In this document: positions 20,245 to 23,989 of the stretch, in pieces
Layout of the letters: each line of letters begins with the position of its first letter
Position numbering within the stretch: the first letter of the stretch is position 1
Source of the DNA: Chitinophagaceae bacterium
GTDB taxonomy: Bacteria; Bacteroidota; Bacteroidia; Chitinophagales; UBA10324
Reading direction: 5' to 3'
Assembly: GCA_947469485.1 (NCBI GenBank)
Contig: CANIPU010000003.1
Location: 62,001 to 126,000, forward strand
DNA length: 64,000 nt
Program-made: the position numbers and the translations under genes
The notes under the pieces: generated by a model
The model's database searches: none
Seen by the model: only the letters and a program-made list of their open reading frames with translations
What the model was told of the DNA's origin: nothing

Positions 20245-20862
20245 TTGAAGAAAATATTATTCATACTATTTACATGTGCCCTTTTTGGTTGCGGAAAAAG
20301 CGAGAATAAAATAAAAGCATCCCTGCTTCCTCTCGGAAATGTTTCATCCGGATATATTGATTCAATCAGTGTGGCAATAAAGAATGAATACAATTTTGAT
20401 GTTTTGATTATTCCGGAAATAAAAATTCCTGAAAAATTTTTCATCAATATAAAATCTCCAAGATATCGGGCTGATTTAATTATAAAATATTTGTTGAGCA
20501 TAAAACCCGATTCAGTTGATTATTTAATGGGAATAACGGAACAAGATATTTCTGTGACCAAAAGAGATGAAACCGGAAATATTAAAAACCCGGAATTGAA
20601 ATATTCTGACTGGGGGGTTTTTGGATTTGGCTATGTTGGAAACAGCAGCAGTGTGATTTCAACCTTCAGATTAAAGAATGAAAACGAGAAGGTTTTTTAC
20701 TCAAGAATTCAAAAAGTTGCTTTACACGAACTGGGTCACAATCTTGGGTTACCTCATTGTAAAAACAAAACATGCATGATGTGTGATGCTGCAGAAACAA
20801 TTAAAACAATTGACCGGGTAAACAAATTACTTTGTGATGACTGCAGGGCAAAAATTCAATAG
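20245..20862 (+). CDS. Archaemetzincin-family zinc metalloprotease, predicted lipoprotein
   Basis: A 205-residue protein. HELGHNLGLPHC begins at H161, and the spacing that follows is exactly that of archaemetzincins: C172, four residues, C177, one residue, M179, seventeen residues, C197, two residues, C200. The first motif binds the catalytic zinc and the four cysteines are thought to hold a second zinc. The N-terminus MKKILFILFTCALFGCGKSE is a lipoprotein signal with C16 as the lipidation site, placing the enzyme in the envelope, whereas most described archaemetzincins are cytoplasmic. The start is TTG; no ATG is available upstream in frame before the hydrophobic segment. A long inverted repeat follows the gene. 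Substrate unknown. Confidence 0.88.
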   Translation: MKKILFILFTCALFGCGKSENKIKASLLPLGNVSSGYIDSISVAIKNEYNFDVLIIPEIKIPEKFFINIKSPRYRADLIIKYLLSIKPDSVDYLMGITEQDISVTKRDETGNIKNPELKYSDWGVFGFGYVGNSSSVISTFRLKNENEKVFYSRIQKVALHELGHNLGLPHCKNKTCMMCDAAETIKTIDRVNKLLCDDCRAKIQ

Positions 20863-20880
20863 CATCATTTTTTCGGGCCA

Positions 20881-20917
20881 TTAGAAGTTCCGCTAAGTAG
20901 AAAAGCGGAACTTCTAA
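20881..20917. repeat. Perfect 14-bp inverted repeat upstream of the amidohydrolase pair
   Basis: TTAGAAGTTCCGCT (20881-20894) and AGCGGAACTTCTAA (20904-20917) are exact reverse complements separated by 9 nt. The element begins 19 bp after the archaemetzincin stop and ends 37 bp before the amidohydrolase ATG. No T tract follows on either strand, so it is not a normal terminator. A -7-like TACTTTTC lies at 20928-20935, so the right arm would cover the -33 region. It could be an operator or an mRNA-stabilising hairpin. Confidence 0.7.
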
Positions 20918-20953
20918 ACACTTCCATTACTTTTCGCCCATAGAAAATTCTAC

Positions 20954-23900
20954 ATGAAGAAAATAATTCTTGCTGCTCTCTTCCTTCCAATCTTAATTCT
21001 TAATTCTAAAATCTCAAGTGCTCAACAAACTTTCCCGGTAAACGGAGTTCACGATGAGCGCGAAGGATATTATGCTTTCATCAATGCAACTATTGCCGTT
21101 GATTACAAGACTTTATTGAGCAATGCAACTTTGCTCATTCATGATGGAAAAATTGTTGCCGTTGGAAATGCAGTTACAATTCCCGCAGGTGTAACCGAGA
21201 TTGATTGCAAGGGGAAGTTCATTTATCCGTCTTTCATTGACTTGTTCAGCAACTATGGAATCGTAAAAACAGAAACACAAAACAACAATCAGCAGGGACC
21301 ACAATTTATTTCCAACAAAAGCGGAGCCTACAACTGGAATCAGGCCATCATGCCCGAAGTTAACGGCGTTGATTTTTTTCATGGTGATGAAAAGCAAGCG
21401 GAGAATTTACGCTCTCTTGGGTTCGGTGCAGTGCTCACTCATCGCATGGATGGAATTATGCGCGGCACAGGAGCTGTAGTGTTGGCGGGAAATGAAAGCG
21501 ATAATGAAATGATTGTTCGCGGAAATGTTGCTTCGTTTTATTCTTTCAATAAAGGAACAAGCACACAGGATTATCCTTCATCACTCATGGGTTCAATTGC
21601 TTTGCTGCGACAAACATTTTATGATGCGCAGTGGTACAAATCAGGTGGAAGCAATGAAGAAAAAAATATTTCGCTTGAAGCGCTGAACAGTCAATTATCG
21701 CTTCCGCAAATTTTTCAGGTAGATAATGACTTAAGTATTTTGCGTGCAGATAAAATCGGTGATGAGTTCGGAATAAAATTTATTATCAAGGGAGCGGGCG
21801 ATGAATACAAACGACTGGATGAAATCAAAACAACAAGCGTTGCGCTCATTGTTCCAATCAATTTTCCAAAACCATACAATGTCAATGACCCGAATGATGC
21901 TGATTTGATTTCGCTCGAAGAAATGATGAATTGGGAACAGGCGCCTGCGAATCTTTTTCGTATTGATAAAGCCGGAATAAATTTTTGTATTACGAAACAA
22001 GGATGTAGTGATGATGCATTCTGGAAAAATCTGCGCAAAGCAATTGCTTATGGATTGAATCCAGCCGATGCACTCAAAGCGCTTACCTACACACCCGCGC
22101 AGCTTTCAGGCGAGTGGAACAATTTAGGTTCATTGGAAAAGGGTAAGCTCGCGAACTTCATCATCTGCTCTGATTCCATTTTCAATGATGAAAACATTAT
22201 TTATCAGAATTGGGTGAAAGGAAAAATGTATCGTGTGAATGATGAACAAATTTCGTCACTGAAAGGAACATATGATTTCACGCTGAACAGAATGGGCGCG
22301 ATAAAACTTTCGATTGAAAATCCTTCATCCAATTCGGTGCAATTAGAATTTCATGATTCAACAAAAGCCGATGTAAAATTTTCGCTAAACGATAATCTGA
22401 TTTCACTTTCGTTTGCAATGCCGAAAGATTCTACAAAACAATTGTACCGCTTGAATGGATTTATTGAGGGAGATAATTTTTCAGGAAAAGGTTTAGACCC
22501 GAAGGGAAATGAAGTGGTTTGGACCGCAACTCGAACAAGTGATGAGAGCGAGAAAAACGATTCAACAAAAAAAGAAAACAAGAACCCTGAATTCGGGAAA
22601 GTGATTTATCCTTTCTGTGCTTACGGCTGGGATACAATTCCGAAACAGGAAACTGTTCTATTCAAAAACGCAACTGTATGGACGAATGAAGCTGAAGGAA
22701 ATTTAGAAAACACGGATGTATTAATCAGCAACGGAAAGATTCAGCAGGTCGGAAAAAATATTTCAGTTCCGGCAAATGCGCGCGTGATTGATGCAACAGG
22801 AAAATTTCTGACATCAGGAATAATTGACGAACATTCGCACATCGCGATTTCTCAGGGAGTGAATGAAGGTACACAATCTGTAACATCAGAGGTTCGCATT
22901 GGCGATGTAGTGAGTTCGGAAGACATAAATATTTATCGCAATCTCGCCGGAGGGGTGACAACATCTCATTTATTACACGGCTCATCAAATACAATTGGCG
23001 GTCAAACGCAACTCATAAAACTTCGCTGGGGTTATGCGCCCGAGCAAATGAAATTTGCAGGATGGACGGGCTTCATAAAATTTGCACTTGGTGAAAATGT
23101 GAAGCAATCGAATTGGGGTGACCGCAACACTGTTCGTTTTCCGCAAACGCGAATGGGTGTTGAACAAACTATGTTCGATGGATTTATCAGAGCGCGCAAA
23201 TATCAAAGCGACTGGAATAAATGGAATTCAACCGCCGCAAAAAATAAAACCATACTAACTGCACCGCGCCGCGATTTAGAATTGGATGCACTATCAGAAA
23301 TTCTTGATGGAAAAAGATTTATCACTTGTCATTCTTATGTGCAAAGTGAAATAAACATGTTGATGCATGTTGCTGATAGCATGCATTTTCAAATGAATAC
23401 TTTCACCCACATATTGGAAGGATACAAAGTTGCCGACAAGATGAAGGCACACGGAGTTTATGCTTCTTCATTTTCTGATTGGTGGGCCTACAAGTACGAA
23501 GTGTATGATGCCATTCCGTACAATGCAGCAATACTTACTAAAGTGGGGGTGATAACAGCTATAAATTCTGATGACGCCGAAATGGCGCGCCGCCTCAATC
23601 AAGAGTCAGCTAAATCAATTAAGTATGGAGGGCTCACTGAAATTGAGGCGTGGAAACTTTGCACGCTCAATCCCGCAAAGATGCTGCATGTAGATGATAA
23701 AACCGGAAGCATAAAAGCCGGAAAAGATGCAGACCTCGTTCTATGGAACAACAATCCTCTAAGCATTTATGCAAAACCTGAATACACTTTTGTAGATGGA
23801 ATTTGTTTCTTCAGTCTGCAGCTCGACCTTCAGAAGCGCGACTTCATTCACACCGAGCGCACGCGCATTATTAACGAAATGCTGAATGCAATTAAGAATG

Positions 23901-23989
23901 GTGAACAGCCACAGGATTTAAATCTCAATTTCAATTTGCTTTACGATTGTGATATGCTTTGTGATGGAAGTCAAATTGGTGCCCAATAA
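20954..23989 (+). CDS. Secreted tandem amidohydrolase: degenerate N-terminal copy plus intact C-terminal copy
   Basis: A 1011-residue protein with signal peptide (cleavage near SSAQQ) and two amidohydrolase-superfamily copies joined by a beta-rich linker. The C-terminal copy has the metal-binding set: IIDEHSHIA with H627 and H629, ITCHSYVQSE, FTHILEG and AINSDDAEMAR, followed by the usual end GSIKAGKDADLVLWNNNPL. The N-terminal copy keeps the fold and the end motif (GSLEKGKLANFIICSD), but the HxH position reads D96-L-F98-S-N100, so the metal site is lost. The C-terminal copy resembles imidazolonepropionase/prolidase-type enzymes; substrate unknown. A second degenerate paralogue starts 11 bp downstream, so the two are probably one operon. 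Confidence 0.87.
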   Translation: MKKIILAALFLPILILNSKISSAQQTFPVNGVHDEREGYYAFINATIAVDYKTLLSNATLLIHDGKIVAVGNAVTIPAGVTEIDCKGKFIYPSFIDLFSNYGIVKTETQNNNQQGPQFISNKSGAYNWNQAIMPEVNGVDFFHGDEKQAENLRSLGFGAVLTHRMDGIMRGTGAVVLAGNESDNEMIVRGNVASFYSFNKGTSTQDYPSSLMGSIALLRQTFYDAQWYKSGGSNEEKNISLEALNSQLSLPQIFQVDNDLSILRADKIGDEFGIKFIIKGAGDEYKRLDEIKTTSVALIVPINFPKPYNVNDPNDADLISLEEMMNWEQAPANLFRIDKAGINFCITKQGCSDDAFWKNLRKAIAYGLNPADALKALTYTPAQLSGEWNNLGSLEKGKLANFIICSDSIFNDENIIYQNWVKGKMYRVNDEQISSLKGTYDFTLNRMGAIKLSIENPSSNSVQLEFHDSTKADVKFSLNDNLISLSFAMPKDSTKQLYRLNGFIEGDNFSGKGLDPKGNEVVWTATRTSDESEKNDSTKKENKNPEFGKVIYPFCAYGWDTIPKQETVLFKNATVWTNEAEGNLENTDVLISNGKIQQVGKNISVPANARVIDATGKFLTSGIIDEHSHIAISQGVNEGTQSVTSEVRIGDVVSSEDINIYRNLAGGVTTSHLLHGSSNTIGGQTQLIKLRWGYAPEQMKFAGWTGFIKFALGENVKQSNWGDRNTVRFPQTRMGVEQTMFDGFIRARKYQSDWNKWNSTAAKNKTILTAPRRDLELDALSEILDGKRFITCHSYVQSEINMLMHVADSMHFQMNTFTHILEGYKVADKMKAHGVYASSFSDWWAYKYEVYDAIPYNAAILTKVGVITAINSDDAEMARRLNQESAKSIKYGGLTEIEAWKLCTLNPAKMLHVDDKTGSIKAGKDADLVLWNNNPLSIYAKPEYTFVDGICFFSLQLDLQKRDFIHTERTRIINEMLNAIKNGEQPQDLNLNFNLLYDCDMLCDGSQIGAQ

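Follow-up and report, generated by a model that had tools for sequence, protein, structure and literature searches.

Introduction

Canonical REPs carry a GTAG tag that is crucial for the E. coli enzyme (PMC8266576), and the E. coli protein was, by the account given in the excerpt of that paper used here, the only transposase of this kind (RAYT) to have been studied with its substrate before. Two further classes come close to the elements described below. CGTC REPs, among them the Rickettsia palindromic elements, are short palindromes treated in PMC3733652. Subclass 2.6 of TnpA_Y1, described in PMC6006769, which also cites the grouping of Bertels et al., is mostly from Bacteroidetes and comprises genes flanked by atypical untagged structures that have copies elsewhere.

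Here we describe a family of palindromes to which a conspicuous hairpin in the window belongs, the window being the whole 64-kb stretch of Chitinophagaceae DNA that was analysed. With the canonical REPs and REPINs, as far as the excerpts of PMC3733652 and PMC8266576 portray them, the family shares a length of 20–40 bp, dispersal, a frequent position downstream of genes with some copies inside them, the flanking of RAYT genes and an arrangement in pairs. It differs from them in its stem, which is longer and perfect as against mostly 6–9 bp in the elements of these excerpts, in its low copy number, the strict pattern giving no genome more than 13 places, and in the tag: GTAG was found within 10 nt of none of 90 hairpin feet, so the family is not a canonical REP. 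The relaxed form GT[AG]G occurred at 3 of the 90 feet, which is chance level (shuffle mean 2.9). Like the CGTC REPs of the PMC3733652 excerpt, the members are short palindromes that also lie inside genes and occur in Bacteroidetes; unlike them, they have CGTC at 1 of 90 feet (shuffle mean 0.85) and stand beside a transposase, whereas the excerpt reports CGTC repeats without one. Compared by description only, the family fits subclass 2.6, our candidate class: in both, a RAYT-type gene of Bacteroidota lies amid structures that lack GT[AG]G and have copies elsewhere, with the difference that the structures are called weaker in the PMC6006769 excerpt, while the stems here comprise 13–15 pairs and are mostly perfect. 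We place the family among the RAYT-linked repeats, broadly defined, as a new member. A literature search for REP or tyrosine transposase in Chitinophag- returned no paper, from which we derive no wider claim of an undescribed repeat.

Results

A Solitary Perfect Hairpin between Two Genes

The hairpin lies between an M54-type protease gene and an amidohydrolase gene, with 18 nt separating it from the stop codon of the former and 36 nt from the ATG of the latter (Table 1). As the initial annotation had stated, it is a perfect inverted repeat, with 14-nt arms that are 100% complementary and 9 nt apart, and the -7-like motif TTACTTTTCGC does lie just downstream of its right arm. No other perfect stem of at least 14 bp with a loop of 3–20 nt exists in the window; such a stem was present in 2 of 200 first-order Markov simulations of the window and, with at least six G/C, in none of 200, and the hairpin is not expected by chance. 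Folded as RNA, the 37-mer reaches −20.1 kcal/mol (z −6.8), a stability equalled by 0 of 200 shuffles, and the 91 nt around it give a folding z of −5.5. Rfam at gathering scores yielded no match in the window, and the arm itself has seven matches there at up to three mismatches versus 5.5 expected.

Table 1. Coordinates of the hairpin and its neighbours in the window.
Feature	Position	Strand	Remark
M54/archaemetzincin-like protease gene	20245..20862	+	TTG start; lipoprotein-like N-terminus by eye; upstream neighbour
TTTTTTCG, upstream of hairpin	20868..20875	+	TTTTC recurs 7–19 nt from foot in family (17 of 112 feet)
Left arm TTAGAAGTTCCGCT	20881..20894	+	AGAAGTTCC family member
Loop, 9 nt	20895..20903	+	most other aligned members have three further pairs here (15-bp stem, 3-nt loop)
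Right arm AGCGGAACTTCTAA	20904..20917	+	
TTACTTTTCGC, promoter-like motif of amidohydrolase	20927..20937	+	identical in 6/6 genus genomes, with or without hairpin
Amidohydrolase gene	20954..23989	+	downstream neighbour

The same annotation had described a strong fold without T tract and without the features of a standard terminator, in agreement with our finding of no terminator-like site in 20700–21100 on either strand. The position behind a gene would suit an intrinsic terminator nonetheless, and 16 of 90 family feet are followed by at least five T in the next 8 nt; such a run is absent from the remaining 74, and together with the lack of a terminator-like site at the window hairpin this renders termination as its function very unlikely.

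Copies in Related Genomes

The initial annotation had proposed counting the arm sequence in the genome, many copies being indicative of a mobile or REP-type repeat. In the own genome (G000), the arm core occurs only at the window site, and arms at up to three mismatches, searched on both strands, have 378 places versus 352 for the backward control, and hence no marked excess of single arms. The family was then defined by a gapped pattern of the outer arms, GAAGTTCCN{8,30}GGAACTTC, with the backward pattern as control. This returned 52 places in 11 of 149 genomes; the control gave 0 in those 11, and 25 matches in 7 other genomes of the 149. The own genome has 2 places, the sister species G002 13, G003 5, G004 4 (including a match by chance within a gene) and G010 3, while the same-genus genomes G001 and G005 have none by this pattern. 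Genus g31, which belongs to another family of the same order, contributes the rest (G123 11, G113 5, G140 4, G074 2, G136 2, G144 1). The proposed count is misleading here: the own genome has two places only, but the sister genomes reveal a REP-type repeat. A mobile repeat can thus be overlooked when copies are counted in a single genome.

A DNA search of relatives found hairpin-sized matches elsewhere in G002. The core pattern TTCCRCTT...AAGYGGAA, applied to 34 chosen genomes, had 14 places in G123, 12 in G002, 10 in G113 and 0–5 in the others, against 0–2 per genome for its backward control; this pattern misses the window copy, and the interiors of some single places look like chance. Across the phylum, 395 evenly drawn genomes, a sample outside which genus g31 falls, gave matches in four: the own genome twice, and G223, G263 and G479 once each with unrelated interiors (backward control, seven matches in four genomes). 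Among the copies fetched, the palindrome is what is common, and the flanks differ, save at orthologous sites and for a few short similarities.

Arms That Change in Step

The family consensus is AGAAGTTCCACTT-loop-AAGTGGAACTTCT, in full AGAAGTTCCACTTCTTTAAGAAGTGGAACTTCT, with 15 pairs and a 3-nt loop. In this register the window copy has 12 pairs, or 14 with two outer pairs added, and a loop of 9. Across 25 distinct aligned copies, pairing holds for 96.8% of cells, and both sides have changed in 6 of the 15 pairs, a number that 0 of 500 shuffles reach; these copies had been chosen by palindromic patterns, a selection that favours pairing. For this reason the count was repeated on 14 copies picked by identity alone, from 12 stretches (L158–L169) fetched for BLAST hits. 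Here, 11 of 17 changed pairs had changed on both sides and still pair, 2 had become G-T, 4 had changed on one side and are unpaired, and none had changed on both sides to leave an unpaired position. Although copies related to one another do not count as independent, the two arms plainly change in step. The outer arms of some copies enclose a different interior, even at orthologous places (L070 versus L088).

Outside the stem, TTTTC lies 7–19 nt from 17 of 112 feet, compared with 2–5 in five control windows; for TTTT the figures are 34 feet and 13–23, and for TTTTT 16 and 3–16. As these counts were made only after the TTTTC patch had caught attention, we take it as a lead only, to a possible insertion-target or linker signal.

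Placement of Copies and Sites with and without the Repeat

For placement, six orthologous duplicates (L081, L082, L084, L086, L087, L088) and one match by chance within a gene (L060) were dropped, reducing 52 copies (11 inside ORFs) to 45, with 8 inside ORFs, 1 at a contig edge and 36 intergenic, four of the latter beside the G002 RAYT. The ORFs are longest-frame calls rather than those of a gene finder, and L090, one of the eight, is merely an open frame before a RAYT start. Of the intergenic copies, 16 lie between rightward genes, 11 between leftward, 8 between convergent genes and 1 between divergent genes. Twenty of the 36 are within 30 nt of a stop codon versus 14.1 expected from random placement in the same gaps, a value reached in 45 of 5000 simulations; within 15 nt the 11 copies versus 8.5 expected are not unusual (804 of 5000 simulations). 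Proximity to starts is the reverse, with 4 of 36 copies within 30 nt versus 9.4 expected.

Open frames with a copy include those of a methylmalonyl-CoA mutase fusion, where it falls between the GTPase domain and the mutase domain, of a TonB-dependent receptor and of a formyltransferase. The TonB-receptor gene of G123 carries a copy that is lacking in 4 of 4 relatives looked at (G113, G140, G144, G136); the net gain is 30 nt versus three of them and 33 versus the fourth, and the frame stays open. Of the signs of movement, this site is the clearest. The mutase fusion site is too diverged for a clean insertion, and at the formyltransferase site G113 has a longer version and other relatives have different letters. 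In the formyltransferase gene of G529 (L298, G529:C11), another repeat-like stretch, GTGGAGTCCCGCAGCGGAGACTCTGCGG, is located where G123 has the in-frame palindrome; it resembles palindromes beside other RAYTs (L269, L273, L274).

A Transposase Gene between Palindromes

One and the same ORF is bracketed by palindrome copies in G002 and in G113, a genome of another family. It matches the NCBIfam model for REP-associated tyrosine transposase (7.6e-13 in G002, 2.5e-18 in G113), with scores of 48.6 and 66.4 bits that stay below the curated cut-off of 80. Pfam gave no match to the G002 protein; its Y1_Tnp model misses the clade of the G002 and G113 RAYTs, and among 30 fetched loci (of 37 Y1_Tnp matches) none had a paired palindrome. 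The clade was found only because a Pfam-negative ORF lay between palindromes in these two genomes. Searched against PDB sequences at E ≤ 0.01, a profile of six members had TnpA_REP 4er8 as its sole match (4.2e-8), and the predicted fold (mean pLDDT 78.7) had 4er8 as its best match as well (E 1.7e-6, TM 0.52/0.63). NHFH is invariant in all six RAYTs, as are Y136 and N140, and NP is present in five, with NA in L265. The G002-type protein thus has the HUH motif, the Y---NP motif and the TnpA_REP fold of a RAYT (TnpA_REP).

All three full-length RAYTs of at least 60% identity have the palindrome on both sides, namely that of G002 itself and those of G136 and G113 (63% and 60% identity to it), together representing two families of the order. 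Around the G002 gene there are palindrome pairs, with starts 80 bp apart, on either side; the G136 gene has the variant AGACGTTCC...GGAACGTCT on either side, in one perfect and one imperfect copy, and beside the G113 gene there are two copies of AGATATTCC...GGAATATCT plus further main-type copies. In total, 3 of 25 RAYT loci looked at carry the family palindrome, and several are without any palindrome nearby. A partial RAYT of G528 (62% identity over 117 residues) is flanked by a different palindrome, and in G123, where the family has 11 places, the RAYTs reach 42, 40 and 28% identity and the family palindrome flanks none of them. The own genome has only distant RAYT-like genes (28–29% identity) without the family palindrome, which makes its own copies look orphaned.

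Two further RAYTs, L258 and L265, lie between other perfect palindromes of similar length. Both sides of L265 (G002:C82) are occupied by AACTTTTCCAAAGTT...AACTTTGGAAAAGTT, which was found in 5 of 16 genomes searched, with 14 places in G002 (L265, L095), 4 in G009, 2 in G003 and 1 each in G005 and G010, and none in the window genome; the protease gene of G002 also has AACTTTTCCAAAGTT downstream of it. That one transposase is paired with one palindrome seems general here, within limits set by G528, G123 and the bare RAYT loci.

The gene of L258 (G074:C2:125480-125920), flanked by AGTCATCCGATGACT palindromes, contains another such palindrome, with no stop; a RAYT gene with an internal palindrome is reported for subclass 2.4 in the excerpt of PMC6006769. 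Two further elements were noted in the fetched stretches: an element of 84–85 nt starting with AACCTTAGTAGAAA and having a near-complementary end, which occurs in two stretches of G002 (L052:2096 and L095:4583) and is absent from the window, and a dispersed ACTTCGGACTTCCGACTTCGG-type repeat in G123 (L069:2950-3005) with many matches in genus g31.

The Window Site in the Genus

The alpha/beta hydrolase and amidohydrolase genes adjoin each other in divergent orientation in G001, G003, G004 and G005, with no protease gene in between, a difference that would stem from either gain or repeated loss. Since the gap in these genomes also lacks the protease gene, there is no clean empty site, and an insertion at the window site was not seen; for the second own copy (G000:C4:187411), no orthologous pair of an occupied and an empty site was obtained. 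In the window genome, the M54/archaemetzincin-like gene is located between the hydrolase and the amidohydrolase; in G002 it adjoins the hydrolase. According to the DNA search of relatives, protease gene and amidohydrolase are on different contigs in G002, the locus being split at the hairpin. In front of the G002 amidohydrolase, a hairpin is retained in imperfect form (−12.6 kcal/mol, z −4.9); in alignment it differs from that of the window by one compensatory change, one pair turned into G-U and one mismatch. A doubtful remnant is seen in G001, and none in G003, G004 or G005. We infer that the hairpin predates the split of G000 and G002, with independent insertion as the alternative.

The initial annotation had also considered a site bound by a dimeric regulator, and a perfect dyad overlapping the expected −33 region would suit an operator that acts on the amidohydrolase pair. 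This proposal fared poorly. The motif TTACTTTTCGC is likely the promoter core of the amidohydrolase gene, and because all six genomes have it in identical form, those without hairpin (G003, G004 and G005) included, the promoter should not need the hairpin. Moreover, the only other own-genome place by pattern lies between convergent ORFs, the relatives' copies are scattered behind, between and within genes that have nothing in common, and the family is scarce near starts and flanks transposase genes, all of which makes an operator improbable in the extreme.

Another reading is that of a crossover site for a tyrosine recombinase. The hairpin has the arm-spacer-arm build of such sites, the outer 8 bp of each arm equal those of the yeast FRT site, and gene order in G002 changes right at the hairpin. 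Spacer length and sequence vary between copies, however, the symmetric changes are those of a stem, and the palindrome flanks an HUH transposase in three genomes, so that we attach virtually no credence to this reading.

A hairpin kept for a task in RNA, protecting the 3’ end of the protease mRNA or slowing transcription into the amidohydrolase gene, possibly as a repeat put to use later and in that case compatible with a mobile origin, deserves closer consideration. It stands just behind a stop codon and is stable as RNA, the family is enriched within 30 nt of stops and scarce near starts, and G002 has preserved a hairpin at the site with a compensatory change and a G-U pair. Avoidance of starts, on the other hand, is equally expected of a repeat that is merely tolerated, and copies also lie in frame inside genes. 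In G002 the hairpin precedes the amidohydrolase without a protease gene in front; of the other four genomes, at best G001 has a remnant. The hairpin lacks a T tract, and by eye the stretch L020 has a separate terminator-like hairpin with a T run beside its copy. On balance, an RNA task appears rather unlikely to us.

Discussion

With a length within 20–40 bp, dispersed copies, a place on both sides of RAYT genes and, for the TonB-receptor copy, absence from the same site in relatives, the palindrome is a RAYT-associated palindromic repeat in the broad sense. The hairpin of the window is, with high confidence, an orphan copy of this small (about 31–33 nt) REP-kind element, and it probably has no specific regulatory task. 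We envisage that the palindrome folds in single-stranded DNA, for instance in the lagging-strand template, and that the RAYT/TnpA_REP protein (HUH/Y1 type) would bind the hairpin, cut it and join it into a new place. Copies would survive where they are nearly harmless, whether in the gaps that follow genes or, in frame, in protein regions that tolerate them. The window copy would have come to rest between the protease gene and the amidohydrolase promoter, where its transcription, if any, would append a hairpin to the protease message and may, as a side effect, act on the 3’ end of that mRNA.

One may go further and tentatively envisage, with rather more doubt than belief, a lineage of Bacteroidota RAYTs whose mobile unit is a single, long, perfect and untagged hairpin. 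Each paralogue would have its own palindrome of ~33 nt, in many cases with a TCC/GGA step in the same position, and would rely on a guide other than GTAG, perhaps TTTTC at 7–19 nt from the foot; insertion would leave in-frame inserts of ~30 nt in housekeeping proteins, and the arms would drift symmetrically along with the transposase.

At the window site itself, the hairpin is a real but rather ordinary orphan palindrome; the family is of moderate interest because the adjoining transposase seems to manage without the usual tag. What was a single puzzling hairpin becomes a readable relic of transposase activity, and the untagged palindromes beside several RAYTs constitute natural pairs of transposase and palindrome on which GTAG-free recognition may be tested.
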